Shown here: positions 11,316 to 40,825 of the stretch, one piece after another
How positions within the stretch are numbered: the first letter of the stretch is position 1
Layout of the letters: each line of letters starts with the position of its first letter
From: Methylococcus sp.
Lineage (GTDB): Bacteria; Pseudomonadota; Gammaproteobacteria; Methylococcales; Methylococcaceae
DNA: 52,577 nucleotides
Direction: 5' to 3'
NCBI GenBank assembly: GCA_007280285.1
Contig: QYQA01000049.1
Location: forward strand, 1 to 52,577
Made by a program: the position numbers and the translations under genes
Notes under the pieces: generated by a model
The model's input: only the letters and a program-made list of their open reading frames with translations
Databases searched by the model: none
Told to the model about the DNA's origin: nothing

Positions 11316-12939
11316 ACGCCACCCTGAAATCGATGCGCTGTTGGCCGGGTTGCACATACTGCGTCCCGACAAAGGGGTATTCCCAATAGAGTTCGCTCAC
11401 GAGGCCCCTAAAGGCTCTCAAGCGAAAACCAGCGCCACTACTAAAAAGATCATAGCCAGTATCCGTCCCTGGTAAGGGATCAATCAACCAAAGCTGTGCA
11501 GCATCGGTAAAGGCTAACATTCGAAAATCATTCAGATACTCGAGCCCATCAAGACCCATATCCCCAAAGTCGGGGCTCCAGAATTCCATCGAGCCCACCA
11601 CACCATTATCGCCCAATCGCTCGACTTCGTGGTAGCCACGAACGGTGAGCATCCCGCCGGCACCCATCTGCTCGTTGCTGATCAAAGGTTCATTAGCAAC
11701 CTGGCCACTCAATCGTACCTGCAGGGCTAAATCTTCGGGGAGTGCCTGCTTATGCTTCACTTCACCAGCGAGATAAAAATAATTGGGTGTTGCGCCATAA
11801 CGCCTTTTGGCAAACTGTTCATAGCTACTACCCATACCAGCAAAATTGAAATTGAGCTCTGTATTCAACTGCGTCAGTGAACCACCCTCTTGGTAGAGCG
11901 ACGCGCTGTAACCTAATTGAAAGGGAGAATACTGCACCGGTGAACTTTGACCTGGCTGTGAGGTATCCCCAATTGGATTGATGCTTTGCCCAAAATCTTT
12001 GTAATCCCAACCAAAGCTCAAGGTTTGAATGATATCTTTATTTTCTTCTAGGGGCTTATTAAGGCGAAGTCCAAAGATGTTGCCGTTACCCACGACATTG
12101 AGAGAACCGGCTGTTGTGACATCACTTGATGAGTCAAGACCAATCCCGTACATCGCAAGCCGAGACCCAATCACGTCAATGGGCATCACATAGGTTCCAG
12201 ACCACACCTGAACGTTCTGAGTGTCCTCGGGGGAGACCTGATACTGAAGAGAAGCGCTATGATTTAACTGCCAAAGGTTGTCATAACGGAGCATCACCGG
12301 CAAACGAAGACGGGTCGTATTGATGCTGTTACGTGCATTCAATTCGACAGAACCATGAATGGGAAGCTCATCCTTGACTTCAAGGTCAATATCAATGGTT
12401 CCGGGCGTAGTACCGGCCCGCATCACAGGGGTCACTTGACGATCAGGGCTTTCAGCAGAGAGCTTAGAGAGCTCCTTCTGAGCCTGAGGAAGATTTAAAG
12501 GCTTGCCTTCAGCCAATGCCGGTACTTTTTCTTTGATGTGACCCGGAGAAAAGTAGCGTGAACCCGTCACTCGAAGGCGATCCACGCTGCCTTCAGTGAC
12601 CTTGAGGATAACGACCCCTTCCCTCACATCCTGCTCAGGGATGTCGACCAAAGCGGCTTGATAGCCTGCATCATGGTAGGCCTTTTCGAGGGCCCCTCGG
12701 GCCTCTTCGACGGTAGCAATGTTTTTATTGTTACCTAAAAATGGGTACACCGTCTTCTCGACAATTTGGTTATCAAGAATGGTGTTGCCTTCGATACGGA
12801 ATTCCCAGACATCAAAGGGATGCGATGACTCATCAGCTGGCGCCTTTGTCATATTGGCTTCAACAACAGGAGTGATCGCCATGAACCACAGAGTGATGAG
12901 CACCCATCGAACAAAGACCAAAAGCATTGTTTTGAACAT
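11305..12939 (-). CDS. TpsB outer-membrane transporter (FhaC/ShlB/HecB family)
   Basis: This Omp85-type pore exports the adjacent TpsA across the outer membrane. The ATG at 12939 is preferred; a TTG at 12960 and an ATG at 12927 are alternatives. A hydrophobic signal ends near ITPVVEA. Two POTRA domains follow (about residues 45-200: FRIEGNTILDNQIV, then VTGSRYFSPGHIKEKV). The C-terminal half is a 16-strand-type barrel with the conserved VRGY motif (LTVRGYHEVERLG) that packs inside the barrel, and the protein ends in aromatic FRVAYEF, as barrel proteins do. Length (about 544 residues) is normal for FhaC-type proteins. It lies directly upstream of tpsA with an 11-bp overlap, so the two are translationally coupled. 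It starts about 90 bp after the terminator of the preceding PstS-like unit, so it probably has its own promoter, which I could not identify clearly. Confidence 0.93.
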   Translation of the reverse strand: MFKTMLLVFVRWVLITLWFMAITPVVEANMTKAPADESSHPFDVWEFRIEGNTILDNQIVEKTVYPFLGNNKNIATVEEARGALEKAYHDAGYQAALVDIPEQDVREGVVILKVTEGSVDRLRVTGSRYFSPGHIKEKVPALAEGKPLNLPQAQKELSKLSAESPDRQVTPVMRAGTTPGTIDIDLEVKDELPIHGSVELNARNSINTTRLRLPVMLRYDNLWQLNHSASLQYQVSPEDTQNVQVWSGTYVMPIDVIGSRLAMYGIGLDSSSDVTTAGSLNVVGNGNIFGLRLNKPLEENKDIIQTLSFGWDYKDFGQSINPIGDTSQPGQSSPVQYSPFQLGYSASLYQEGGSLTQLNTELNFNFAGMGSSYEQFAKRRYGATPNYFYLAGEVKHKQALPEDLALQVRLSGQVANEPLISNEQMGAGGMLTVRGYHEVERLGDNGVVGSMEFWSPDFGDMGLDGLEYLNDFRMLAFTDAAQLWLIDPLPGTDTGYDLFSSGAGFRLRAFRGLVSELYWEYPFVGTQYVQPGQQRIDFRVAYEF

Positions 12940-13029
12940 AATTGAGAGTAAGTATCGCAATCAAAGGTGGACTAAACCAATTTTCAGCCCATGACAACTT
13001 GCTAAAAAACCACTTCTTTCATAACAAAG

Positions 13030-13114: not shown

Positions 13115-14560
13115 TTACCAAGAAGAGGTCGGCGCAACACAATTGTTGGGGAAATCAGCTGCATTCTTAGCAAACCGAACATTAGTCACCGGATTCGTTG
13201 CACACGTGTTGGTGGTGTTACAAGAAGCACCATCCGTTACGGCCATATAGCCTGAATCACCAAAGTTCAGCTTATAGCCAGCAGTCGCATTTCCCTTAGC
13301 GATAATCGAAGGATCGACCATTTTCTGGACGATCGCATCCATAATCGCAACCTCAGCAGCCGTTCCGGCCCCCGTCTGTTGGCGCTGGAAAGTCCCCTGG
13401 GTCACAAATTTATAACCCCCAGAAGCTATTTCAGTCAGCGTCGGTGATTTCCCATCAATCTTAATGATGCGGTAATTCTTGGTCTGAGCTGCATCGGCAC
13501 CTGTTCCATTTCTGGGTGCTGACACCAAACCAATCGCGTAATCACCGTTCAGATTAGCGTTAACCAGTGCGGTTTCAACTTCACCAGTTGTTCCAGACGT
13601 ACTTATATTTTTACCGTAAAGGGCGGTAGGTTGAGCGCCGGTGGTGCAAGGATAAGCCTTACTCATATCAGAATAGAGCTTGCTTGGCACAGCGACCATC
13701 AGGGAAGCTTGGGTACCAGATCCGATTTCTCTTCGCGCTAACGTTATAGGCTTTGCTTGAAGGTTCGGATCCACCTTATCCCAAGAGGTGACAGCACCAG
13801 TCCAGATGTCGGCTAACTGGCTTGCCGTCAAGCTGGGTGTACAGACACCCAATTCACGGGTCGAAGAACACGTAGCGGCCAAAGCACCTGATTTAATTTG
13901 GCTATCTTGCAATGCATCTCTTAGATTTAGAGACACTGGCGTGTTGAATGGTGTCACAATCCCTGACGTAATTTTCATCTTACTCAAACCAGTAGCCTGA
14001 GTAGCCCCAGCTTCAACCGGCGCGTTCTGAAGTACGAACCATTTTGGATGAAGATCCGTCAGCCCGAGCTGTGGAACGAATACATCCACGAGACCCGGTT
14101 TTGAGTCGTCGCAAACATTCTTCGCATCACAAAGCGCCGCTGTGCTAGGTGAAACCGCCATGAATTGAATCTTTGACCCATTAATGACAGGGTTAGCTCC
14201 GAGAATCGACCCACCCGCACTAGTGCCTGGGGCAAAAGTAGTGGCTCCAATCACGGTGGTATAGCCTGAGTACCGAACCATAATTGGCGTGCCATTACTG
14301 ATACCGCTGATATCCTGTGACAAGCAGTAATAGGTAATATAACGATCACCACCCAGGGCATTCGTATATTTCTCATAGGTTCCAGTCTGACACACCCCGT
14401 TCAGGATGGCGTTATCAAGATTCAATTTCTGTGCAGATGAACCAGATAAGTAGACAATATATTGAGGTACTTTGCTGAGAGCGTCCTGGGCCGCCAGGGC
14501 GCTTCCAGAACCCAGTAATGCCGCGACATTCGCAGCAAGTACAAAACTAATTTTTTTCAT
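13115..14560 (-). CDS. Exported PstS-like phosphate-binding-family protein
   Basis: A 481-residue protein starting at the ATG at 14560, preceded by GGAGTTTGATC as ribosome site. Residues 1-23 are a signal peptide (KKISFVLAANVAALLGSGSA, cleaved near ALA). Two elements point to the PstS/PBP-like-2 fold: YLSGSSAQ near the mature N-terminus (position of the phosphate-binding GS(S/T) loop) and LADIWTGAVTSWDKVDPNLQ followed by RREIGSGTQAS, which matches the I(F/W).G..W.......R..GSGT signature of PstS. It is longer than E. coli PstS (about 346 aa) and contains several Cys pairs in the C-terminal third, which suits an extracytoplasmic location. It sits 42 bp after the exported Thr-Pro-linker protein and probably shares its transcript, and is not in the pst operon 24 kb away. 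It could be the Pst binding protein, a secreted phosphate scavenger (DING-like), or bind another oxyanion. Confidence 0.75.
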   Translation of the reverse strand: MKKISFVLAANVAALLGSGSALAAQDALSKVPQYIVYLSGSSAQKLNLDNAILNGVCQTGTYEKYTNALGGDRYITYYCLSQDISGISNGTPIMVRYSGYTTVIGATTFAPGTSAGGSILGANPVINGSKIQFMAVSPSTAALCDAKNVCDDSKPGLVDVFVPQLGLTDLHPKWFVLQNAPVEAGATQATGLSKMKITSGIVTPFNTPVSLNLRDALQDSQIKSGALAATCSSTRELGVCTPSLTASQLADIWTGAVTSWDKVDPNLQAKPITLARREIGSGTQASLMVAVPSKLYSDMSKAYPCTTGAQPTALYGKNISTSGTTGEVETALVNANLNGDYAIGLVSAPRNGTGADAAQTKNYRIIKIDGKSPTLTEIASGGYKFVTQGTFQRQQTGAGTAAEVAIMDAIVQKMVDPSIIAKGNATAGYKLNFGDSGYMAVTDGASCNTTNTCATNPVTNVRFAKNAADFPNNCVAPTSSW

Positions 14561-14602
14561 GATCAAACTCCGATCTATCACTTTTAATGAGTTGCGAGGC
14601 GA

Positions 14603-15973: not shown

Positions 15974-16663
15974 TTGACTGCGGTTCTCATCATCGAAGGT
16001 ATAAATGAGCGGCATACGATCTTGCGTGAAACCCTGGAAAATTCCGGAATGAGGGTGATGTTCGCCAGTGACGCCAAAAAGGCGCTGTCAACCATTGAAG
16101 CCTCGCCTCCCAACCTGATCGTCTTCGACGTCCCCGATCATGACCCCCATCTTATTGGCTCAGAACTCATGGCCGAACTTCGGCAACATAAAGACTTTGA
16201 GGATATTCCCGCGATTATCGTTGCCCATCGCCACAATGGTCAGGGATTTCGGGGCCCTGAATCTGGGGCTGATGACACCATTTATAAGCCGCTTGACCCT
16301 CATGAACTGATCACCCGCATCAAGGCGGTTCTAAGAAAGCGATCTCATCGCATTTCGTCTGGGCATCTCGAACTAGGCGGCATTGAAATGTATCTCGATG
16401 AACACCGCATCATCATTGAAGGGAAGGAAGCCTTGCTCCGACCCATGGAGTTTAGGCTCCTCGAATTCTTCATGCGAAACGCCGAGAAAGTCTTTAGCCG
16501 AAGGCAATTGCTTGATAAGGTCTGGGGCCAGTCGGTGTTCATTGAAGAGCGCACCGTCGATGTTCACATCAGACGCCTTCGAAACATTCTGGACGTTCAC
16601 CATAAAGGTGAACTAATCCAAACGGTTCGAGGCTTCGGTTACCGATTCTCCGAACGGGTATAG
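15974..16663 (+). CDS. OmpR/PhoB-type response regulator with degenerate receiver
   Basis: A 229-residue regulator. The start is TTG at 15974, supported by GGAGCGACC just upstream. Residues 1-118 form a receiver domain: the phospho-acceptor Asp is kept (LIVFDVPD, about residue 51), as is the Lys (IYKPLDP). The acidic pair after strand 1 is reduced (LIIEGINE instead of VVEDD), and the switch Thr is replaced (IIVAHR instead of IMLTAR). Residues 125-229 are a winged-helix DNA-binding domain with RPMEFRLLEFF, EERTVDVHIRRLR and QTVRGFGYRFSE, close to the canonical PhoB at 29857. Phosphorylation may therefore be weak or absent, making it a constitutive or competing binder of the same sites. No histidine kinase is adjacent. 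It is divergent from the exported/PstS-like unit. Confidence 0.9.
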   Translation: MTAVLIIEGINERHTILRETLENSGMRVMFASDAKKALSTIEASPPNLIVFDVPDHDPHLIGSELMAELRQHKDFEDIPAIIVAHRHNGQGFRGPESGADDTIYKPLDPHELITRIKAVLRKRSHRISSGHLELGGIEMYLDEHRIIIEGKEALLRPMEFRLLEFFMRNAEKVFSRRQLLDKVWGQSVFIEERTVDVHIRRLRNILDVHHKGELIQTVRGFGYRFSERV

Positions 16664-19544: not shown

Positions 19545-21170
19545 TTATTTAAATCCAAGCGCCGCCGCCATCACGTGATAGATCACGAGATTTTCTTGGG
19601 TACCATGGAAGAGCCACGCATAAGGGCCCGTGGCATAGATCGCAACGTCTTCACCGGCATGAGTTTCACTACCACCGGTACCCGTTGGAACCAAGGCTTG
19701 CTGATGAAAGTTCTTAGCCGTGGTGTCAACGTCCGTCATATTAACCGTACGCCCCGTGTTGGTTGGATAAGCCGCATCCCCGTCAGCACCCACATTGTAG
19801 CCGCCACCATTCGCATAGCTCAGCGTGGTGTAGGGTGCCTTGTCAACCGCCTGCACATACCCTGCTTGAGGGTTATCAAACCCGACGACCTTCCCGAGGA
19901 TATTGTTACCACGCTGTGGGTAACCAGCGATCGTGAAGACATGGCTGTGGTCCGCGGAGACCACAATCAAGGTGTCCTTATCAAGCTTCAGCTCGGCAAG
20001 GGTCGCTTGCGCTTGCTTGACTGCATCAGACAGAGCGATCGCGTCGGTCAGAGCGCGGTAAGCATTACCGGCGTGGTGACCATGATCGATACGGCCCGCT
20101 TCAACATGAAGGTAAAAACCTTTCTTGTTGTTCTTGAGGATACGGATCGACTTGTCGGTCAGAGCAGCAAGGCTCGGCTCACCCGCTGAGGTCGTATTCC
20201 GATCCGCTTCATACTGCATGTGAGATGGCTCAAAAAGACCCAAGACATGACTGGCTGATGCAGGATTGATTTGGTTGAAGCCCGCCGTATCGGTAATGAA
20301 TGAGGCCCCTGTGTGCGCTTTAACCCAATCTTCGGTCAAATTACGACCGTCCTTACGTTTCCCTAAGACCGTTGTATACTCTGGATCCTTGACGGTGTTT
20401 GGGAGGAAATAGGTACGGCCGCCACCAAAGACGACGTCAATGCCATCGCCATGCTTAAATTCAATCAACTGGCGAGCGATGTCTGGAATCACGCAGCCTG
20501 CTGCTGGCTGATTGGAATCTGCTTCCCAGTCACGATTGGTCGTATGCGCATAGTTGGCTGCAGGCGTTGCGTGGGTGATCCGCGCGGTACTGACAACACC
20601 GGTTGAAAGACCTGCATCTTCTGCACGCTCAAGAATCGTCGGGAGGGAATTGGCTGCAAGATCCGGCCGATTACAATCAGCCACCGTAGTGCCATGGGTC
20701 ATGGTCTGGTTAACCGAGAGCTCATCACCGTTGGTCTTGATACCCGTGACCATGGCGGTCATGGTTGGCGCAGAATCAGGGGTCTGCTGGTTGACGCTAT
20801 AGGTCTTTGAATGAGCCAAATAGGGGAAGCTTTCGAAGCTCAGGAAATTTTCTTCACCACTAGATGCGGTGGCGCCATTGCCTGTTCCGATGATACCGGG
20901 CTGCTGACCTTGAAGAATACGGGCGGCCGTGACCGTAGAAACGCCCATCCCGTCACCGACGAAGAAGATGACATTCTTCGCTCTACGGATATTTTTCTGC
21001 AGTTTCTTGGCATCGGCAACTGCCAGCTTACCGGCATCAAACCAGGAGGTTGCACTTGACATTGGGGGGGTAAAGGAATCCGGTGTCGGTGCAGCGATTG
21101 CACCGAGACTCAGGGTCGCTAACAAGGAGGCGGCCATCACCACCATTCCCTGCTTCAGATTTGTATTCAT
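19545..21170 (-). CDS. phoA: Alkaline phosphatase PhoA
   Basis: A 541-residue exported alkaline phosphatase that hydrolyses phosphomonoesters in the periplasm. ATG at 21170 with GGAGCGAATGT upstream. Signal peptide to about residue 27 (LATLSLGAIA). Active-site features in order: FFVGDGMGVSTV (first metal Asp), QTPDSAPTMTAMVTG (nucleophile Ser in DSA), THATPAANYAH, HVEAGRIDHGHHAGNA (metal-binding Asp/His), VSADHSHVF and ETHAGEDVAIYATGP (metal His). The length is somewhat above the E. coli enzyme (471 aa), as in many environmental PhoA proteins. It is a single-gene unit with a PhoB-box-like promoter at 21265 and a strong terminator downstream, so phosphate-starvation control is likely. Confidence 0.95.
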   Translation of the reverse strand: MNTNLKQGMVVMAASLLATLSLGAIAAPTPDSFTPPMSSATSWFDAGKLAVADAKKLQKNIRRAKNVIFFVGDGMGVSTVTAARILQGQQPGIIGTGNGATASSGEENFLSFESFPYLAHSKTYSVNQQTPDSAPTMTAMVTGIKTNGDELSVNQTMTHGTTVADCNRPDLAANSLPTILERAEDAGLSTGVVSTARITHATPAANYAHTTNRDWEADSNQPAAGCVIPDIARQLIEFKHGDGIDVVFGGGRTYFLPNTVKDPEYTTVLGKRKDGRNLTEDWVKAHTGASFITDTAGFNQINPASASHVLGLFEPSHMQYEADRNTTSAGEPSLAALTDKSIRILKNNKKGFYLHVEAGRIDHGHHAGNAYRALTDAIALSDAVKQAQATLAELKLDKDTLIVVSADHSHVFTIAGYPQRGNNILGKVVGFDNPQAGYVQAVDKAPYTTLSYANGGGYNVGADGDAAYPTNTGRTVNMTDVDTTAKNFHQQALVPTGTGGSETHAGEDVAIYATGPYAWLFHGTQENLVIYHVMAAALGFK

Positions 21171-29856: not shown

Positions 29857-30543
29857 ATGCTAAACATACTGGTGGTGGAAGACGATAAAGGCATCAGAGA
29901 CATGTTGAAAGACATGCTGGAAGAAGCCGATTTTTCAGTGGAGCTCGCGGGCGATACCCAAAAGGCGCTGGCCTCCATTCAGCGCCAACTTCCGGACCTT
30001 ATACTCCTTGACTGGATGCTGCCAAGCCAAAGTGGGATCGAATGGTCTCGGCGACTTAAAAAGGATGAGCGCTTTGCCTCTATCCCCATCATCATGCTCA
30101 CCGCCCGGACTGAAGAAGAGGACAAGATCAAAAGCCTCGATTCAGGGGTGGATGACCATATCAGCAAGCCTTTCTCGAGTCGAGAACTGCTTGCGCGGAT
30201 TCGGGCCGTCCTCAGGCGTTGCGGCAAATTAGATAAGCTCAAAAGGATAGAAGCGGGCGGTATCACACTGATCTCGGATGAACATCGCGTCCTGATCCTC
30301 GGTCACCCCATCACCATCAGCCCCACCGAATATCGCCTATTGGAATTCTTTCTGAGCAACCAAGACCGCCTCTTTAGCCGCTCTCAGCTCCTTGATCAGG
30401 TGTGGGGAAGGCACAGCTCGATCGAGGAGCGGACCGTGGATGTCCACATCCGAAGACTCCGAAAGCTGTTATCTCACTTCAGCAAGGAAAACCTCATTCA
30501 GACCGTCAGGGGTTTCGGCTACCGGTTTTCTGAGAATCAGTAA
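29857..30543 (+). CDS. phoB: Phosphate-regulon response regulator PhoB
   Basis: A 228-residue OmpR-family regulator. The receiver has all functional residues: VVEDDKG (acidic pair), LILLDWMLPSQSG (phospho-Asp), IIMLTARTEE (switch Thr) and HISKPFSSREL (Lys). The C-terminal winged helix has SPTEYRLLEFF, EERTVDVHIRRLRKLL and QTVRGFGYRFSE, as in PhoB. The recognition helix is almost identical to that of the degenerate regulator at 15974. The assignment to PhoB rather than another OmpR-type regulator rests on the surrounding phosphate genes and on the box-like promoters. No phoR is adjacent; the gene 23 bp downstream is a transporter fusion. Confidence 0.85.
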   Translation: MLNILVVEDDKGIRDMLKDMLEEADFSVELAGDTQKALASIQRQLPDLILLDWMLPSQSGIEWSRRLKKDERFASIPIIMLTARTEEEDKIKSLDSGVDDHISKPFSSRELLARIRAVLRRCGKLDKLKRIEAGGITLISDEHRVLILGHPITISPTEYRLLEFFLSNQDRLFSRSQLLDQVWGRHSSIEERTVDVHIRRLRKLLSHFSKENLIQTVRGFGYRFSENQ

Positions 30544-30566
30544 TCCATAACGGAGCCTTAAGGATC

Positions 30567-32711
30567 ATGAGCCTCAGCGGTAAAATCACCCTAGGGCTCA
30601 TCAGCGGCATTGCCTTGGGTCTTTTTTTGGGGGAATGGGCTAAGCCTTTTGAGACGATCGGCCAAATCTATATTGGCCTCATGCAAATGACGATCGTCCC
30701 CTACATCGTCTTCTCACTGATCGGCAACATTGGCCGCCTCTCGTCTCGGGAACTGCGTCTCCTGACGGGTTCAGGCCTATTGATGTACGCCTTGATCCTC
30801 ATCGCCAGCGGAACGGTTGCCCTCGTTTTAGCGGAATCCTTTCCCGATATCCCGGCCTCAAGATTCTTTAGTGCCAGCATGGTGGAGCCAGCTCCGAACC
30901 TTGGCTGGTACGATCTATTTGTACCGGCTAACCCTTTGAAGGCCATGGCAGAGAATCATGTCCCTGCCGTGGTCATCTTCTGCCTCTTATTTGGCGTCAG
31001 CATGAGTGGTCTCAAAGAGGCCGACCGCCTTTTGGATCACATGAGTCTCATCGCCAAAAACCTTCACCGCGTCAATGGCATGGTGATTCGGCTGACCCCT
31101 ATAGGCGTCATGGCCATTGCCGCCCATACCGCCGGCACCATGAGCCTTGAAGAATTCGAACGCCTCGAAGGTTATTACCTTGTTTTTGGGGTCTACAGCT
31201 TGATCATGGCGTTTTGCATTCTCCCCCTCCTGGTGACGAGCCTGACGACCTATAGCTATAGACATGTGATGACCGCCGCGTGGAACGGCTGCCTGACCGT
31301 CTTTGCAACGGGCAGTATTCTTTCGGTCATTCCGCTGATGATCGACGGCCTCAATGGCCTCTTCAGACAAAAGGCGCAGGATCGAAGCCAAAAAAGTGTT
31401 GCTGAATTTATTCTCCCCCTCGCCTACCCTTTCCCCAACGCCGGCAACATCGGCGCCTTATTGTTCATTCCCTTTGCCGCCTGGTTTATTGGAGAACCCC
31501 TAGACCTCCATGAAGAGGGCCTCCTCCTCGGTCTAGGCTTTTTTTTGTTGTTCGGCAAAATCTTTGTGGCCATCCCTTTTTTGCTGAACCATTTTCAGCT
31601 GCCTGAAGATATGTTTGAACTCTTTATCACCGGGGGAGTTTTTGCCGGTCGTTTTGGGGATATGGTGGGCGCGATGCACTTTATCGTCTTCACCATCCTA
31701 GCCACGTGTGCTATGCGGGGCGAGCTTTCGATTCAGTGGATAAGGCTCCCCGTCCATCTTTCATGGGTCGTTCTATTGCTTATGGCGTCAAGCTTTGGGA
31801 TTCAGACCGTCTTGGACCGTTTGGAAGATCAAAGTGCCAGCGAACAGAAGCTACTGACGCGGAACAGCACCATCCGCCCTGATCACCTTTTAGCTCATTT
31901 AGTTTCAAAAGAACCCAATCCCGTGGCTCTCGCCCCCAATGAAAACCGCCTGGAGCGAATCCACCGTCGAGGTGTCCTTCGCGCAGGAATCCTCGTCGAT
32001 AACCTCCCCTATTCCTACCGTAACCAAGCTGGCGATGTGGTGGGTTTTGATGTTGACCTCCTAACCCGGCTCGCCAACGACCTTCATGTGTCCCTGGAAT
32101 TAGTGCCTTATGAGCCAGTGAGCCTTGACGAACAGCTGGCCAAAGATCATTTTGATATCGCTGTTTCGGGCCTCTCGATCACGTTCGAGCGCGCCACCAA
32201 AATGCTCATGACGGAGCCTTACTTTGTCGCGAGCTTCTGCCTTGTGGTGAAGGATCATCTGAGGCGGGATTTTGAACAAGAGGCGTCGATCGCTCGCATG
32301 AAAAGTCCTCGTCTCGGCGTGGCGGTCGACGGACTGCTTGCCGAAAGCGTTGATGAATATTTCCCAAACGCCACCATTATTCCTCTTGATTCAACCCGTG
32401 AATTCTTCGAAACCCCACCATCCCCGATGGATGCCCTCGTGATTCAGGCTGAAAGTGGGGCTAGTTGGACGCTCCTTTACCCCTCCTACAGCATCGTCAA
32501 TCCTTTTAATCACCCGATCAGGTTACCGATTAGCATCGCTGTCGCTGGCTATGACAGGGTCCTCGCTGACACCTTGAACACCTGGATCACCCTTGAAAAG
32601 ATGAAGGGTCATATAGAACGGCTCGCTGATTATTGGATGAGCGGTAAGGATCTACGTCCTCAAACACCCCGTTGGTCGATCCTCCGTAACGTGCTTGGCT
32701 GGACCCCCTAA
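30567..32711 (+). CDS. DAACS symporter fused to a periplasmic solute-binding domain
   Basis: A 714-residue fusion. Residues 1-415 are a dicarboxylate/amino acid:cation symporter: many membrane helices, an N-terminal LISGIALGLFLGEWA helix, IGLMQMTIVPYIVFSLIGNI, NPLKAMAENHVPAVVIFCLLFG, FPNAGNIGALLFIPF and a hairpin-like TGGVFAGRFGDMVGA. Residues 470-714 are a type-3 extracellular solute-binding domain: RIHRRGVLRAGILVDNLPYS, GDVVGFDVDLLTRLANDL, FDIAVSGLSIT. It forms an operon with phoB, where phoR normally lies. The ligand is unknown: classical DAACS substrates are C4-dicarboxylates or Glu/Asp, and the binding domain is of the amino-acid type. Direct uptake and a sensory role are both possible. 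Confidence 0.85.
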   Translation: MSLSGKITLGLISGIALGLFLGEWAKPFETIGQIYIGLMQMTIVPYIVFSLIGNIGRLSSRELRLLTGSGLLMYALILIASGTVALVLAESFPDIPASRFFSASMVEPAPNLGWYDLFVPANPLKAMAENHVPAVVIFCLLFGVSMSGLKEADRLLDHMSLIAKNLHRVNGMVIRLTPIGVMAIAAHTAGTMSLEEFERLEGYYLVFGVYSLIMAFCILPLLVTSLTTYSYRHVMTAAWNGCLTVFATGSILSVIPLMIDGLNGLFRQKAQDRSQKSVAEFILPLAYPFPNAGNIGALLFIPFAAWFIGEPLDLHEEGLLLGLGFFLLFGKIFVAIPFLLNHFQLPEDMFELFITGGVFAGRFGDMVGAMHFIVFTILATCAMRGELSIQWIRLPVHLSWVVLLLMASSFGIQTVLDRLEDQSASEQKLLTRNSTIRPDHLLAHLVSKEPNPVALAPNENRLERIHRRGVLRAGILVDNLPYSYRNQAGDVVGFDVDLLTRLANDLHVSLELVPYEPVSLDEQLAKDHFDIAVSGLSITFERATKMLMTEPYFVASFCLVVKDHLRRDFEQEASIARMKSPRLGVAVDGLLAESVDEYFPNATIIPLDSTREFFETPPSPMDALVIQAESGASWTLLYPSYSIVNPFNHPIRLPISIAVAGYDRVLADTLNTWITLEKMKGHIERLADYWMSGKDLRPQTPRWSILRNVLGWTP

Positions 32712-32830: not shown

Positions 32831-32868
32831 TAGAATCACGGGATTGTCATCTTCGTGACATGATTCTA
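32831..32868. promoter_or_regulatory. Nested palindrome upstream of the porin (PhoB-box-like core)
   Basis: An outer repeat TAGAATCA (32831-32838) / TGATTCTA (32861-32868) encloses TGTCAT-CTTCG-TGACAT (32845-32861). The core repeats the arrangement at 1129-1145. It could be an operator for the porin, or the end of the symporter transcript, since a TATTTTG stretch follows. A -10 at the standard distance is missing. Confidence 0.35.
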
Positions 32869-32913: not shown

Positions 32914-34677
32914 ATGATGTATTTTCTAAACCTTAAGCGCCCCGGCCTCATGGCTGGATTTTTTTTATTAGGTTTTACCAGCCCTTTGAGCCTGGCCTCA
33001 ACCGGTTCGCAGGATAGCGCTCTGTTGGAGACCCTTTTAAAAAATGGCGTCATCAACCAAGAACAGTTCGCATCCCTCAGTAAAGCCAGCGGCCAGCTCG
33101 GCAGCAATGAGCTGATTGACATCCTCGCTAAGAACGGCGCGATCACCAAGGATCAGGCCAAAAATCTTGGCAGCTCCACAGCCAGTGCCGACAGCAGTAA
33201 GGTGGGCGGCGTTAAAATGGTCAATGCCGATACCAAGAAAGATGAGGGCTATGTTCACCTGAATGAAAAGGGCCTCGAATTCGGTTCTCAGGATGGCAAC
33301 TTCAAGGCCAAGATAGGTGGCCGTGTGCAGGTCGACTCCCAGGTCAACTGGAATGACAAGAATGCCCCCCCCGGCACCGATCTCTCCAACGGCGTAGGCC
33401 TGCGCCGCGCCCGTCTGTTCAGTGAGGGCCTCTTTTTTGGTGACTACGAATATCGTTTTGAATACGACTTTGTGAGAAACAATGGGGGTACGCAGGGCAT
33501 CACCGATGCCTTCGTGAAGTACATTCATTTCAAACCGATTGCGATCACCATCGGTCAGCAAAATGAAGGGAAGTCGCTTGACTCTTACATGTCGAACAAC
33601 TACCTCACCTTCATCGAACGGTCGCTGCCGAATAATGCCTTTATTGAACAGGGCTCCAACAGTAAATATCAATTGGGCCTCACCGCAGAAACCTTCGAAG
33701 AAGTCTTCGACTTGCCCTACTTCCTTCGAGGCGGCATCACCACGGAATCACTGGGTGCTCCAGGGCCTGGCAATAGTTCAGACAACACCGTCGGAGGCAT
33801 TAATAATACCGGCGGCACCAACGGCACAGCCACTAACGCCAACCGCAACGGCTTCAGCGGCAACACCAGCTATCAGCTGGTTGGGCGTGGGGTTCTGGTT
33901 CCCTTCAAGGACGAGGAAGGCAACCTCCTCCATACCGGCTTATGGGGCTCAGGCCGCGTTCTGAACCATAATTATAACCAGAACGGCAGTCTCAGAACGG
34001 GGGGTTGGTCCTACCAATCACAACCGGATACCGACGTCGATCGGACCAACTGGATCAACACCGGCAACCTCACCAACACCAAGTGCGTAGGCGGAACCTA
34101 TAACAGCGCAACCGGTGTTTGTGCGGGCGGCCACAACGTCGTCCAGCATCAGGCCAACAGTGTCAATATGTTCGGTGCGGAACTTGCGGGCGCCTACGGC
34201 CCTTTCCACACCACGTCTGAATTCATGATGGCACAGGTGAATGGTTACAACTACAGCAGCGCCGATCTCCTGCAAGGCTTCTATGTGTCAGGTGGCTGGT
34301 TCATCACCGGTGAGACGCGACCCTATGATGAAAAGAAAGGGACCTGGAACCGTCTGATTCCGCGGTCCAACTTCCTTTCGGGTGATGGCTGGGGCGCCTG
34401 GGAAGTCGCGACCCGTTACGATCTGATGGATATGAACACCAAGCACATCAATGGTGGCGCCATCGATATCGGAACCTTAGCCCTCAACTGGTACATGACG
34501 CCGAGAATTCGGTTCATGACCAACTGGGTTCATGTCTTTGCCACTAACACCTCTCAGGCCTTAAAGGCATCGGGCAGCAAGTGCAATTTCCCAGCACAAG
34601 GAGCCAGCGCCAGCATTGGATGTTTTAACGGCCTTAGCCCAAATGTCTGGGAAACGGCGGTTCGTATCGACTTCTAA
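32914..34677 (+). CDS. OprP/OprO-like porin
   Basis: About 587 residues from ATG 32914, with AAGAGACCG upstream. A signal peptide ends near SPLSLAS. An N-terminal region has two short repeats, LLKNGVINQEQFASLSK and LAKNGAITKDQAKNL. The barrel follows: GLEFGSQDGNFKAKIGGRVQ, GLRRARLFSEGLFFGDYEYR, GITDAFVKYIHFKPIAITIG, then LTFIERSLPNNAF, and a C-terminus VWETAVRIDF typical of outer-membrane barrels. The RRAR, EGLFFGDYEYRFEYDF and IERSLP elements are characteristic of the phosphate- and polyphosphate-selective Porin_O_P family. It probably lets phosphate or polyphosphate through the outer membrane. It is larger than OprP (440 aa), mainly through the N-terminal region and Gly/Asn/Thr-rich loops. 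Confidence 0.88.
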   Translation: MMYFLNLKRPGLMAGFFLLGFTSPLSLASTGSQDSALLETLLKNGVINQEQFASLSKASGQLGSNELIDILAKNGAITKDQAKNLGSSTASADSSKVGGVKMVNADTKKDEGYVHLNEKGLEFGSQDGNFKAKIGGRVQVDSQVNWNDKNAPPGTDLSNGVGLRRARLFSEGLFFGDYEYRFEYDFVRNNGGTQGITDAFVKYIHFKPIAITIGQQNEGKSLDSYMSNNYLTFIERSLPNNAFIEQGSNSKYQLGLTAETFEEVFDLPYFLRGGITTESLGAPGPGNSSDNTVGGINNTGGTNGTATNANRNGFSGNTSYQLVGRGVLVPFKDEEGNLLHTGLWGSGRVLNHNYNQNGSLRTGGWSYQSQPDTDVDRTNWINTGNLTNTKCVGGTYNSATGVCAGGHNVVQHQANSVNMFGAELAGAYGPFHTTSEFMMAQVNGYNYSSADLLQGFYVSGGWFITGETRPYDEKKGTWNRLIPRSNFLSGDGWGAWEVATRYDLMDMNTKHINGGAIDIGTLALNWYMTPRIRFMTNWVHVFATNTSQALKASGSKCNFPAQGASASIGCFNGLSPNVWETAVRIDF

Positions 34678-35068: not shown

Positions 35069-35761
35069 TTAAGCCTCGGAAGATAGATCGAAACCCCCAT
35101 AGATTTCGAACATCGCATATTCAGCAAGATTAAGCGCATGATGAATAATACGGTCGAGAGATTTTGCAAGGAGAACCAGACGGACTGCCGCCTTGACGTC
35201 AAGGCTCTCCTCAAGAAGACAGGTCATCACGCGATGGAGTTCTGCCTGAAAGTCGCCATCCATCCGTTGGTGCCCGGCGATGACATAGAGCGCTTTCTGT
35301 TCATCCCACTGATCAAAGAGACCAACCGCCGTATCAAGATGGGATAACACCAAAACACCCATTCGATCCACCCCATCCATCAAGCTCTCGATCAAGGGTG
35401 TTGAAGACTCCAGTCGGATTTCCTCAAGCAGGAGGGCCATACGCGTCGCTTCTTCACCTATTTTTTGAAGATCCCCAACACTTTTTGAGACCGCCACCAC
35501 CAGACGAAGGTCTGAGGCAAGCGGTGAATTCCGAGCGATCACCTCGACGATCTCGGCATCGGCAGCGAGTTCCATCCGATCAATGTCGCTGTGGCGCGCT
35601 AAAACCTTCTGGGCCAACGCGATATCCTGGGTCCTGAAGGCCGTCAGCGCATCTTGAACCTGCTGATGGACCGACTGCCCCATCTTCGTCACCATCAGAT
35701 GGAGATTCGATAACTGTCCATCAAATCGTTTGAAAGTATGGCCTTCGCCGCGATCATTCAT
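35069..35761 (-). CDS. phoU: Phosphate regulator PhoU
   Basis: A 230-residue PhoU protein, chosen to start at ATG 35761 with GGAGCTTTTAACG before it. The two three-helix PhoU repeats are visible: LSNLHLMVTKMGQSVHQQVQ, DRMELAADAEIVEVIARNSP and LRLVVAVSKSVGDLQKIGEE in the first half, then DQWDEQKALYVIAGHQRMD, LLLAKSLDRIIHHALNLAEY in the second. PhoU couples Pst transport to the PhoR-PhoB signal and restrains the regulon when phosphate is plentiful. It is the second gene of a unit with the divergent PstB paralogue (22-bp gap), on the opposite strand from pstCAB; in most bacteria phoU follows pstB directly. Confidence 0.93.
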   Translation of the reverse strand: MNDRGEGHTFKRFDGQLSNLHLMVTKMGQSVHQQVQDALTAFRTQDIALAQKVLARHSDIDRMELAADAEIVEVIARNSPLASDLRLVVAVSKSVGDLQKIGEEATRMALLLEEIRLESSTPLIESLMDGVDRMGVLVLSHLDTAVGLFDQWDEQKALYVIAGHQRMDGDFQAELHRVMTCLLEESLDVKAAVRLVLLAKSLDRIIHHALNLAEYAMFEIYGGFDLSSEA

Positions 35762-35783
35762 CGTTAAAAGCTCCAAAAAGGGA

Positions 35784-36674
35784 TTATTCGCTGCACCCAC
35801 TGATAAACCGATCGGTCAAGGGATGACTCGGCGTCGTGAACATCCTGTCGGTAGGGCCTACCTCCACCAGTCTCCCCTGACGAATAAAGGCCGTTCGCTG
35901 CGACACCCGGGCAGCGGACTTTAGAGAATGAGAGACGAGCACGATGGTATAGGCCTGACGCAACTCATCAATCATCTGTTCGATCTTGGCACCCGAGCCG
36001 AGATCAAGACTCGAGCAAGGCTCATCCATTAAAATCACTTCAGGATTCACCGCGAGCGCCCTTGCAATGCAAAGCCGTTGCTGTTCCCCCGCAGTTAATG
36101 ACAACGCCGGCGCAAACAGGCGGCGACTGAACTCTCGCCAAAGCCCCGCCTGACGAAACACCAGTTCAACCAAGGAGCTTTCTTCACTCTTACAAGAGAC
36201 CAGCCCATGGATCCTAAGACCATAGGCCACGTTCTCATAAATCGATTTGGGATAGGGGTTCGGCTTTGGAAAGACCATACCGATTCGCCCCCTAAAACTG
36301 ACCGCATCAACACCGGGGGCATAAATATCCTCGCCATCCAGGAAGACACGCCCCTGAACCTCACAATGTTCGCTCGCTTCGACCATCCGATTAAGGCATC
36401 GAAGGAACGTCGATTTCCCGGCACCCGAAGGACCGATGACAGAAATCACTTCATTACGACCAATATCAAGAGTGACCCCCTTGAGGACTTCTCGCCCGGC
36501 AAAACGCACCCGAAGATCTTCACAACGGACCCGAGGTTTCGGTGAACGCCATTCGCCGACCGAGGGGGCCAGCTGATCGGAGGCAAAAGGATCTTGCTCG
36601 GGGCCTCCCCTCAAGATTTTCTGGGCAACTTCAGCACCCGAAAAGAGCGGTGGACCAAGAGTGCGTTGCGCCAT
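35784..36674 (-). CDS. Divergent PstB paralogue (ABC ATPase with altered Q-loop and signature)
   Basis: A 296-residue ABC ATPase closest to PstB. It keeps Walker A (GPSGAGKST), Walker B with catalytic Glu ([12 protein letters not shown]), the H-loop His (VLVSHS) and the PstB-type stretches FLRCLNRM and QQRLCIAR. It differs from the standard PstB at 39989 in two functional places: the Q-loop is MVFPKPNPYPKS, with Pro for the conserved Gln, and the signature is LTAGEQQR rather than LSGGQQQR. It also has a 45-residue N-terminal extension. It is followed 22 bp later by phoU. It may be a PstB replacement with low ATPase activity, or a dedicated partner of PhoU in signalling. A sequencing error is possible for single residues, but two separate sites are changed. 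Confidence 0.85.
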   Translation of the reverse strand: MAQRTLGPPLFSGAEVAQKILRGGPEQDPFASDQLAPSVGEWRSPKPRVRCEDLRVRFAGREVLKGVTLDIGRNEVISVIGPSGAGKSTFLRCLNRMVEASEHCEVQGRVFLDGEDIYAPGVDAVSFRGRIGMVFPKPNPYPKSIYENVAYGLRIHGLVSCKSEESSLVELVFRQAGLWREFSRRLFAPALSLTAGEQQRLCIARALAVNPEVILMDEPCSSLDLGSGAKIEQMIDELRQAYTIVLVSHSLKSAARVSQRTAFIRQGRLVEVGPTDRMFTTPSHPLTDRFISGCSE

Positions 36675-37252: not shown

Positions 37253-38635
37253 GTGGAAAAATCGACCTTATTCCTGCTGATACTCCTTGGCAGCACTATC
37301 GCTTACATGAGGACTACTTGGCGTGCAAGGACCCTCGCAGAAACTTCCGGACGAAAGCTCCATTCTCTTCCAGGGTTCTATGGTTATTACACCGCCCTTT
37401 GGTGCGCCCTCCCGGGACTTCTCCTTCTGCTCCTGTGGCTTTTAGGAGAAGGTAGCCTCCTCACGGCGGGCGCCCTCGCTAGACTCCCCGAAAGCTTTCT
37501 TGATGGCGCCGCACCCGAGAAGATCCAGTTATTGGTCAACGACATCAAGAGCATTGCCCAAGGCAGCTTCGAAGGCCAAATTGATCCCGCCATCCAGATG
37601 GCAGCCGATCGATTTTCGGAGCTCACGCAATGGAGCCGAATCCTTTTGACGGTGCTATCGATCACCGCCAGTCTCAGTGGCCTTTTATTTGCTCAAACCC
37701 GAATCAACCCGGACTTTAGGGCAAGAAACCACGTTGAAACGGTCGTTCGTGTTGTTCTGATCGGCTGCGCCTTAACCGCCATCTTTACCACCGTAGGCAT
37801 CGTCCTATCCGTCCTGATTGAATCGTTACGTTTTTTCAACATGGTGCCCATCACCGACTTTCTGTTTGGCCTCAAATGGAGCCCACAGATTGCGATGCGA
37901 GCCGATCAGGCCGGATCCTCAGGGGCCTTTGGGGTGATCCCCCTCTTGCTGGGTACCCTCCTTATCTCAACGGTCGCGCTCGTGGTCGCGGTTCCTATTG
38001 GACTTCTCTCAGCGATTTATCTCTCAGAATATGCAACGCCAAATTTCAGAGCGATCGCTAAGCCGCTGATCGAGATTCTTGCAGGCATCCCAACCGTGGT
38101 TTACGGCTTCTTTGCGGCGCTCGTGGTAGCCCCATTCCTAAGAAATATGGGGGCCGAGATCGGGCTTGAAATTTCATCCGAAAGCGCCCTGGCAGCAGGG
38201 TTGGTGATGGGCATCATGATCATTCCCTTCGTGTCATCACTGTCAGATGACTTCATCAATGCCGTCCCACAGTCACTCAGGGACGGTGCCTACGCCTTAG
38301 GCGCCACCCAGTCGGAAACGATCCGGCAGGTGGTCATCCCTGCCGCGCTCCCTGGGATTGTCGGTGGGATTCTGCTCGCGGCTTCCAGAGCCATTGGAGA
38401 AACCATGATTGTGGTGATGGCCGCTGGCCTCAGCGCCAACTTGACCCTGAACCCCTTGGCCGCAGTGACCACGGTCACCACACAAATCGTCACGCTGCTC
38501 GTCGGTGATCAAGAATTCGATAGCCCGAAGACTCTGGCCGCCTTTGCGCTTGGCCTGATACTCTTCATCCTAACGCTGTGCCTCAATATCTTGGCTCTGC
38601 GCATTGTCCGCAAATACCGTGAACAATATGAGTGA
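37253..38635 (+). CDS. pstC: Phosphate ABC transporter permease PstC
   Basis: A 460-residue permease, GTG start at 37253 with TAGGAG 10 bases upstream. The long N-terminal part (about residues 1-190), with membrane segments and a soluble loop (EKIQLLVNDIKSIAQGSFEG), is the extended form of PstC seen in many proteobacteria. The transport core follows: FGVIPLLLGTLLISTVALVV, VPIGLLSAIYLSEYA, EILAGIPTVVYGFFAAL and the EAA-like loop DGAYALGATQSETIRQVVIP, then GGILLAASRAIGETM. It forms the inner-membrane channel with PstA. It overlaps pstA by 8 bp. No pstS precedes it in this operon. Confidence 0.95.
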   Translation: MEKSTLFLLILLGSTIAYMRTTWRARTLAETSGRKLHSLPGFYGYYTALWCALPGLLLLLLWLLGEGSLLTAGALARLPESFLDGAAPEKIQLLVNDIKSIAQGSFEGQIDPAIQMAADRFSELTQWSRILLTVLSITASLSGLLFAQTRINPDFRARNHVETVVRVVLIGCALTAIFTTVGIVLSVLIESLRFFNMVPITDFLFGLKWSPQIAMRADQAGSSGAFGVIPLLLGTLLISTVALVVAVPIGLLSAIYLSEYATPNFRAIAKPLIEILAGIPTVVYGFFAALVVAPFLRNMGAEIGLEISSESALAAGLVMGIMIIPFVSSLSDDFINAVPQSLRDGAYALGATQSETIRQVVIPAALPGIVGGILLAASRAIGETMIVVMAAGLSANLTLNPLAAVTTVTTQIVTLLVGDQEFDSPKTLAAFALGLILFILTLCLNILALRIVRKYREQYE

Positions 38636-39929
38636 TTCAAGCCATCAACCCCTCTCGAGGGGTCATACCCACGACATTGTCATGGCCGGACTCGCCAAGC
38701 GTCGCAGCGCCGAGAAACGGTTTCGGCTTTTTGGACTGGCCTCCATTGTGGCGGGTCTTATCTTTCTTCTCGTCCTCTTTGTCAGCATTATCGGCAACGG
38801 TTACTCGGCCTTCACTTACGCCAATGTCGCACTCGACATTACCTTTGATCAAGCCGTCATTGACCCTGAAGGCCACCGCAATCCCGGGACGCTCGCTGCT
38901 GCCGACTACGACACCTTATGGAAGGCCTCCTTGGAGAAACTTTTCCCGGACGTGACGGGGCGTCAACAAAAAAGGGCTCTCAATGCCTTCATGGGTTTCT
39001 CAGCCGACAAGCGCCTCAAGGACATGGTGATCGGAGATCCTAGCCTGATCGGGACCACAAAGACCGTTTGGCTGCCGGTGGATGACACCATCGACATGCT
39101 GATCAAGGGTAAGTTGGGCAAGGAAGAGGAGCTCAACGAGCGCCATCTTCTTGACCAAGCCTGGATCAAGACGCTTCAAGATCAGAACCGGATCCGCTCA
39201 TCATTCAACCGTGAGTTCTTCACCAACGGCGATTCCAGAGAGCCTGAGGCCGCTGGGATCTGGGGCGCCGTCACCGGCTCCGCCCTGACCCTCCTGATCA
39301 CCATTGGCCTCTCGCTCCCGATCGGGATCGCGGCCGCTATTTACCTTGAGGAGTTTGCCCCAAGGAATCGCTGGACCGACTTGATTGAAGTCAATATCAA
39401 CAATCTTGCCGCGGTCCCTTCCATCGTATTCGGTCTGCTGGGTTTGGCCGTTTTCATTAATTTCTTCGGCCTGCCCCGATCCTCCCCCTTGGTGGGTGGC
39501 CTGGTTCTCACCTTGATGACGCTTCCGGTGATCATCATTGCCGCCCGCTCAGCCCTCAAATCAGTGCCACCATCGGTGCGTGAGGCCGCCCTCGGCATTG
39601 GCGCCTCACCCGTCCAGATGGTCTTCGATCACGTGCTACCATTGGCCGTACCGGGCATAATGACCGGGGCGATCATTGGCACGGCAAGAGCTCTTGGTGA
39701 AAGCGCGCCACTCCTGATGATCGGAATGGTGGCCTTCATTGTCGACATTCCCAAAACATTTACCAGCGCCGCCACTGTCCTACCGGTCCAGATTTATCTT
39801 TGGGCCGACAGCCCCGAGCGTGCCTTCAACGAACGCACCTCGGCCGCGATCATGGTCCTTCTGGCCTTTCTGATGATCATGAATGGTTTCGCTGTTTACG
39901 TCAGAAGGCGCTATGAGCGTCGCTGGTAA
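38628..39929 (+). CDS. pstA: Phosphate ABC transporter permease PstA
   Basis: A 433-residue permease starting at ATG 38628, which overlaps the pstC stop. An upstream in-frame TTG is not needed. The N-terminal extension (IGNGYSAFTYANVALDITFD to DTIDMLIKG, about residues 50-170) matches the DUF3333 domain common in proteobacterial PstA. The core has ALTLLITIGLSLPIGIAAAI, YLEEFAPRNRWTDLIEV, NLAAVPSIVFGLLGLAVF, the EAA loop REAALGIGASPVQMVFDHVL and IIGTARALGESAPLLMIGM. It pairs with PstC for high-affinity phosphate uptake. Confidence 0.95.
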   Translation: MSDSSHQPLSRGHTHDIVMAGLAKRRSAEKRFRLFGLASIVAGLIFLLVLFVSIIGNGYSAFTYANVALDITFDQAVIDPEGHRNPGTLAAADYDTLWKASLEKLFPDVTGRQQKRALNAFMGFSADKRLKDMVIGDPSLIGTTKTVWLPVDDTIDMLIKGKLGKEEELNERHLLDQAWIKTLQDQNRIRSSFNREFFTNGDSREPEAAGIWGAVTGSALTLLITIGLSLPIGIAAAIYLEEFAPRNRWTDLIEVNINNLAAVPSIVFGLLGLAVFINFFGLPRSSPLVGGLVLTLMTLPVIIIAARSALKSVPPSVREAALGIGASPVQMVFDHVLPLAVPGIMTGAIIGTARALGESAPLLMIGMVAFIVDIPKTFTSAATVLPVQIYLWADSPERAFNERTSAAIMVLLAFLMIMNGFAVYVRRRYERRW

Positions 39930-39988
39930 ACCCAGGTATCCGGTTTCAATTGCACCCCCAACCCAAGCTCCCATGAAGGGATAACCCC

Positions 39989-40825
39989 ATGACTAAACTC
40001 GAAAACAGCACCATGGAAAGACCGTTCCACCGGGAACATCGGAGTACCGTTGGGACCTTTACCTCAGACAACCCTCGGATTGTCTGTCGGTCGGTCGATG
40101 TCTATTACGGCGAGAAACACGCCGTTCAAAATATTAATATCGACGTCGGCCGACATCAGGTGATCGCCCTGATTGGCCCATCAGGCTGCGGCAAATCAAC
40201 TTTTCTTCGGTGCCTCAATCGAATGAATGACACCATTCCTGATTGTCGGGTGACCGGCGATATCAGCATGGATGGCATCGCCATCAACGGCCCTGAGGTT
40301 GACGTCGTTCCCCTAAGGGCCCAGGTCGGCATGGTCTTTCAAAAGCCTAATCCCTTTCCCAAAAGTATCTTTGAGAATGTCGCTTATGGCCCAAGGATCC
40401 ATGGCCTAGCCAGCAACCCCAGTGACCTTGAGGAGATCGTCGAGAACTCGCTTCGCCGCGCTGGCCTTTGGGACGAGGTCAAGGACCGCCTGCCGCAGCC
40501 CGGTACCGGCCTTTCCGGGGGACAGCAACAACGCCTCTGTATTGCAAGGACCATTGCGGTCAACCCTGAAGTCATCCTGATGGATGAACCCTGCTCAGCG
40601 CTTGATCCGATTGCAACCGCCAAAATCGAACAGCTGATTGATGAACTCCGGGCCCTTTACACCATCGTCATCGTGACCCATTCAATGCAGCAGGCGGCCC
40701 GCGTTTCACAGAGAACCGCCTTCTTCCATCTGGGCCACCTCATCGAGGTGGGAGAAACCGCTCAAGTCTTTACCAATCCTCAGCATCAGCTGACTGAAGA
40801 ATACATCACCGGCCGCTTCGGCTAA
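39989..40825 (+). CDS. pstB: Phosphate ABC transporter ATPase PstB
   Basis: A 278-residue ATPase with all canonical motifs: Walker [11 protein letters not shown]-loop [20 protein letters not shown], signature [13 protein letters not shown], Walker [14 protein letters not shown] and H-loop [20 protein letters not shown]. It powers PstCA. ATG at 39989 has AAGGGATAACCCC upstream, 59 bp after pstA. It is the last gene of the unit and is followed by a strong terminator. It differs from the paralogue at 35784 at the Q-loop and signature. Confidence 0.96.

Follow-up and report, generated by a model that had tools for sequence, protein, structure and literature searches.

Introduction

High-affinity solute-binding proteins (SBPs) serve membrane transporters in the TRAP and ABC importers, and fusions of the SBP to the transporter are known in ABC systems (PMC8276074). 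The transporters of the DAACS (SLC1) fold, among them GltPh, DctA and the ancestral protein AncInt (9bgy), have eight transmembrane segments, two hairpins and a broken TM7. The residues that define Na+ coupling, H+ coupling and the binding of acidic substrates in this fold have been described, as has AncInt, an uncoupled protein in which the site for ion and substrate is preserved (PMC12668577). In a third system, PstSCAB–PhoU, a transporter informs a kinase by signalling to PhoR, the partner of PhoB in the phoB–phoR two-component system.

How does the present locus compare? The window, a stretch of 52,577 nucleotides, is contig C16 of a Methylococcus sp. assembly (2.22 Mb in 125 contigs, 88% complete). 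Directly 3′ of its phoB, after 23 bp, the initial annotation had recognized a gene that fuses a DAACS (SDF) domain to a type-3 SBP, and Pfam and the sequence agree. Nor does the 52 kb hold a PhoR-like kinase, again as had been claimed: the genome has 15 HATPase_c matches, all of them on other contigs. As in TRAP systems and in ABC importers that carry a fused SBP, a high-affinity SBP would serve a membrane transporter, but here the membrane part is of DAACS fold rather than DctQM or ABC (Pfam finds no DctQ or DctM domain in it, only SDF) and the SBP belongs to family 3. The fold is that of GltPh, DctA and AncInt; on the other hand, the canonical substrate and cation motifs are missing (in 64 of 64 relatives), HP2 is shorter, and a ninth helix, TM9, and a predicted periplasmic SBP have been added. 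PhoB and PhoR both exceed their equivalog cut-offs, but their genes stand at separate loci, and there are two full PhoBs and a degenerate third. All the parts of PstSCAB–PhoU are present in the host genome, and nothing in our analysis assigns a signalling role of that kind to the fusion.

The fusion gene and its protein

Is the fusion a real gene? AAGGA lies upstream of its start codon. Its orthologues in two congeners (G003 and G004) are 78–80% identical and occupy the same place, with the 23-bp gap kept, and comparison with them gives a dN/dS of about 0.14–0.20 in both halves, overall about 0.17, a sign of purifying selection. Because of these syntenic orthologues and the low dN/dS, we conclude that the gene is real. 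Chance as the origin of its two domains is excluded. A decayed pseudogene, also considered, is ruled out by the overall dN/dS together with a site that is conserved family-wide.

Pfam assigns residues 4–370 to SDF (PF00375, 158.7 bits against a cut-off of 27.9) and residues 471–691 to SBP_bac_3 (PF00497, 71.7 bits against 26.4), and finds neither a histidine kinase nor any other signalling domain. The AlphaFold2 model (pLDDT 79.1, pTM 0.67) has a DAACS fold in which both hairpins and the broken TM7 are present, then a helix at residues 393–423 and the SBP at 461–691. With matches above both cut-offs and both folds in the model, the protein falls within the DAACS family and within solute-binding protein family 3. 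Its membrane part superimposes on the ancestral aspartate transporter 9bgy with Z 38.1 and an rmsd of 3.0 over 367 residues, and on GltPh with Z about 32. By the topology of the model, TM9 would bring the C-terminal domain to the periplasmic side of the membrane. That domain matches amino-acid SBPs, both in phmmer (AncCDT-1, 9.5e-24) and in Foldseek (9e2b and AncCDT-1, TMt 0.82–0.88). In amino-acid-binding SBPs of family 3 an arginine that follows SGxxIT binds the carboxylate of the ligand; this residue, R542, is present in the window protein, but in only 37 of 64 relatives.

Table 1. Features of the window (bit scores against family cut-offs; Pho-box scores are relative).
Feature	Position	Strand	Evidence or remark
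PstS-like PBP_like_2 protein	13115-14581	-	extends phosphate island leftward
Third PhoB-like regulator, degenerate phosphorylation pocket	15974-16663	+	TIGR02154 205 bits, under cut-off
PhoA-type alkaline phosphatase	19545-21170	-	extends phosphate island leftward
Weakened Pho-box remnant upstream of phoB, CTGTAACCCCTTAATCAA	29794..29811	+	score 12.4, expected 0.17 per region
phoB, window-type copy	29857-30543	+	TIGR02154 306.5 bits, equivalog cut-off 296.2
Gap between phoB and fusion, 23 bp	30544..30566	+	too short for a separate Pho box
SDF–SBP_bac_3 fusion gene, 714 aa, ATG start	30567-32711	+	intact ORF; Pfam, AlphaFold2 model, dN/dS
DAACS domain, residues 1-385, 8 TM and two hairpins, non-canonical site	30567..31721	+	structure match
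Extra helix TM9, residues 393-423	31743..31835	+	AlphaFold2 model; hydropathy peak at residues 401-410
Type-3 solute-binding domain, residues 461-691	31947..32639	+	PF00497, phmmer, Foldseek
Pho box of porin gene, 3′ of fusion end	32844-32861	+	score 19.2, expected 0.0007 in region
Porin O/P gene (probable start)	32915..34677	+	PF07396 151 bits; listed ORF starts 32803
phoU and second pstB-like gene	35069..36674	-	phoU TIGR02135 144.6 bits, above cut-off
Of these, the second PstB-like ATPase, next to phoU	35784-36674	-	TIGR00972 304 bits, under cut-off 343
pstC, pstA, pstB	37253..40825	+	TIGR02138, TIGR00974, TIGR00972 above cut-offs

phoB without phoR at its side

If phoR does not follow phoB in the window, where is it? 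A genome-wide search located a full-length PhoR of 429 aa on contig C58 (TIGR02966, 400–401 bits against a cut-off of 334.2). Its absence from the genome is thereby ruled out, and of the options first offered it is the one that placed the kinase elsewhere that proved correct. Among the 18 genomes outside the window's genus in which both genes were found, phoB and phoR are adjacent in 17, at a nearly constant spacing; in the eighteenth they lie on separate contigs of a fragmented assembly. Within the window's genus of the Methylococcaceae they are together in none of six genomes. Five of these six have a PhoR match, a contig edge cutting two of the five, and none was found in the sixth, whose assembly is incomplete.

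Which of the two genes moved? G006, from the same family, has phoB, phoR and an OmpA-like gene in that order. In the window's genus the OmpA-like gene (47% identical) still follows phoR, and phoB has gone from phoR's side. Since phoR has kept this neighbour and lost the other, it was phoB that left and phoR that stayed. We conclude that the phoB–phoR pairing of this bacterial order has been broken up in the window's genus; the comparison shows that phoB was relocated to the dagK locus, inside a phosphate-acquisition island, and duplicated. The initial annotation had spoken of a ‘phoR position’ for the fusion. Because of the adjacency seen in nearly all the outside genomes, the spot after phoB is indeed an unusual one for it, but the fusion does not replace phoR.

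The second PhoB that scores above the TIGR02154 cut-off is encoded on contig C34, beside a gene that is PstS-like by PF12849 and falls under the TIGR02136 cut-off. It is 72% identical to the window PhoB, whose receiver and DNA-binding residues are intact, and the two have GIRDMLKDMLE (helix 1) and the recognition helix in common. Together with the PhoBs of the congeners they form one clade (support 95/96). An assembly artefact was considered and is ruled out, G003 carrying both copies. The G003 contig that bears the C34-type genes also has a homologue of the first ORF in the window, which probably places C34 immediately to the left of this stretch. The third, PhoB-like regulator stands where G005 has an intact PhoB. 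In it EDD has become EGI and MLTAR has become IVAHR, with loss of the acidic pair and the conserved threonine; its DNA-binding domain is intact, and it may act without phosphorylation.

The phosphate-acquisition island and its transcription

Phosphate genes abound throughout the window, among them those for PhoA, PhoU, the Pst proteins and porin O/P (table 1). Beside them, at 1281-12960 on the minus strand, lies a two-partner secretion pair, a 3363-aa filamentous-haemagglutinin-like protein (TPS, DUF3739) and a ShlB-type transporter.

How might the fusion be transcribed? From the 23-bp gap we infer that it is probably co-transcribed with phoB. The weights with which we scored Pho boxes were modelled on E. 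coli boxes in general, which makes the values, 19.0 for the phoB on C34 and 18.2 and 16.7 upstream of phoB in the sister lineage, relative only. The remnant upstream of the window phoB aligns with the better box of the sister lineage, ATGTAACCGCATTGTCAT. At 12.4, with 0.17 expected, it makes a weak case for control of the phoB–fusion unit by PhoB in the window's species.

The porin gene has an upstream Pho box of its own and belongs by this sequence criterion to the Pho regulon; in G003, G004 and G001 repeat arrays occupy the position of the box. Because the box lies upstream of the ATG at 32915, which precedes a signal-peptide-like sequence, that ATG is probably the true start. A single phoB–fusion–porin operon was rejected as the whole account, given the porin's own box; read-through from the fusion into the porin is possible. 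Between 29300 and 37300 there was no Rfam match, and a scan for consensus promoters and terminators gave matches no more frequent than in shuffled sequence.

Spread of the fusion and its neighbours

A scan across genomes found at least 535 stretches that encode the fusion. The 80 best loci are spread over gammaproteobacteria, deltaproteobacteria, planctomycetes, Bacteroidota, cyanobacteria, Acidobacteria, Nitrospirota and others, and within the bacterial order the fusion is present in 24 of 301 genomes. The literature searched, with thin coverage of subscription journals, gave no account of SDF–SBP3 fusions, and these fusions apparently form a large, undescribed family in which a DAACS-fold transporter has an SBP tethered to it. 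One copy, in G104, is shortened to 522 aa (L094:6140-7708) and possibly broken.

Is the fusion a partner of PhoB? The fusion gene is readable at 76 loci, and at four of these, all in the window's genus, a true phoB lies within two genes of it. Only the window and two congeners have the two genes side by side; the other two congeners have a phytase-like gene between them. Because many phyla carry the fusion and phoB is nearby only in this one genus, the fusion is no PhoB partner.

What, then, connects it with phosphate? The connection is drawn from the island, with its alkaline phosphatase, PhoU, Pst and porin genes, and from the recurrence of phosphate-type neighbours in two genera. A second genus of the family (G006 and G020, 33% identity) has the order phytase-like gene, fusion, DUF3616, with PstS nearby and without phoB. 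In G001, phytase-like and PstS genes adjoin the fusion. Outside the Methylococcaceae phosphate-type neighbours are usually absent. Porin O/P genes flank the fusion in several phyla.

Might the neighbourhood nevertheless be incidental, the fusion riding as a passenger in the phoB transcription unit and serving some unrelated purpose, for example the uptake of amino acids? Its neighbours elsewhere do differ (SulP permease, sulfatase and others), its SBP resembles amino-acid binders and keeps their conserved arginine, and the Pho box before phoB is weak in the window. Against this stand the phytase-like and PstS genes that accompany the fusion in a second genus where no phoB is at hand, the porin O/P genes at its side in several phyla, and the abundance of phosphate genes across the window. 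We regard an incidental neighbourhood as the strongest of the competing explanations, and as unlikely.

The alternative set beside a distant kinase in the initial annotation, that nutrient uptake is tied to the Pho regulon, is plausible by the same genomic context: the fusion lies in a phosphate island, the gap leaves no room for a promoter, and relatives have phytase-like, PstS or porin O/P neighbours. What falls short is the Pho box upstream of phoB, which is convincing only in the sister lineage.

Two further neighbours were recorded. A gene for a SulP-type sulfate permease lies near the fusion in several Methylococcales (L085 and L090; also L111 and L112), a possible clue to the substrate. 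A sulfatase gene adjoins it at eight of the 76 loci, mostly in planctomycetes (L163, L165, L169, L171, L172 and others); this is a raw count, sensitive to the base rate in planctomycetes, and we do not take it as such a clue.

The substrate and cation site

In GltPh numbering, Na+-coupled members of the DAACS family carry N310, M/S311, D/E312 and D/E405, and H+-coupled members L311 and N405. In our alignment of 64 fusion relatives the full Na+ signature occurs in 0/64 and so does the full H+ signature. The substrate residues R397 and N401 are both glycine in the window protein; across the family the arginine is found in 8/64 and the asparagine in 0/64. The NMDGT, serine-rich HP1, HP2 tip and TM8 motifs are absent from the 64 aligned relatives. 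All seven canonical homologues examined from the same order have the NMDG-type and TM8 motifs. P290, G293, F329 and P337, which are specific to the fusion family, are kept in 64/64. Because these new motifs are retained throughout where the canonical residues are gone, the alignment indicates a site that is rebuilt, not decayed.

With every canonical coupling residue lost, the fusion could be a protein that does not transport. Could it be a sensor instead, its SBP ligand acting via a transport-dead DAACS domain to modulate PhoR and PhoB, in the way of PstSCAB–PhoU? The window and two congeners have it right beside phoB, two more congeners have it one gene away, and the canonical transport residues have all been replaced in a conserved fold with a conserved SBP. 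The same replaced site is found, however, in relatives from many phyla that have no phoB beside them, and the new site is strongly conserved, as would be expected of a working transporter. The fusion has no signalling domain, and the ordinary inputs, the PhoR, PhoU and Pst genes, are all present. We hold such a sensor to be quite improbable. A transceptor, in which an SBP-gated DAACS domain without ordinary coupling would report a phosphorus-containing solute to PhoR–PhoB, seems a shade more improbable still. The early suggestion that the fusion might also sense has found no backing: in all other genera seen, the family occurs without phoB.

Least probable of all is that the fusion works as a symporter of the classical kind for glutamate/aspartate or dicarboxylates, coupled to Na+ or H+ and differing only in the SBP that it bears, for although the SDF match and the Z of about 32 to GltPh would suit it, neither coupling signature occurs in any of the 64 relatives and all four canonical motifs are absent.

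Discussion

The reading that we prefer, at a probability of about 0.62, is that phoB and phoR were split and that the fusion is a single-chain, SBP-fed importer with a rebuilt site, read together with phoB. As far as sequence and model allow, the fusion is most likely an importer of elevator type in which the binding protein forms part of the same chain, set within a phosphate-acquisition island. Its periplasmic SBP domain would catch a small solute, probably anionic or amino-acid-like, and hand it to the DAACS-fold elevator domain. Because the substrate and cation site of that domain is rebuilt, it would not be a glutamate symporter of either classical kind, Na+ or H+. The fusion would be read from the phoB transcript, and so made together with phoB, and the porin would answer to PhoB via its own Pho box. 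A single distant PhoR would presumably serve both full PhoBs.

What does this mean for the organism and for the family? The story of a transporter that stands in for PhoR is removed. In its place the window's genus offers a natural experiment on how two-component systems are wired: its phoB moved away from phoR and was multiplied, and its phoR remained single. The family, with a DAACS fold, an SBP tethered to it and a completely rebuilt site, bears on how a well-studied fold can change its substrate and its coupling.
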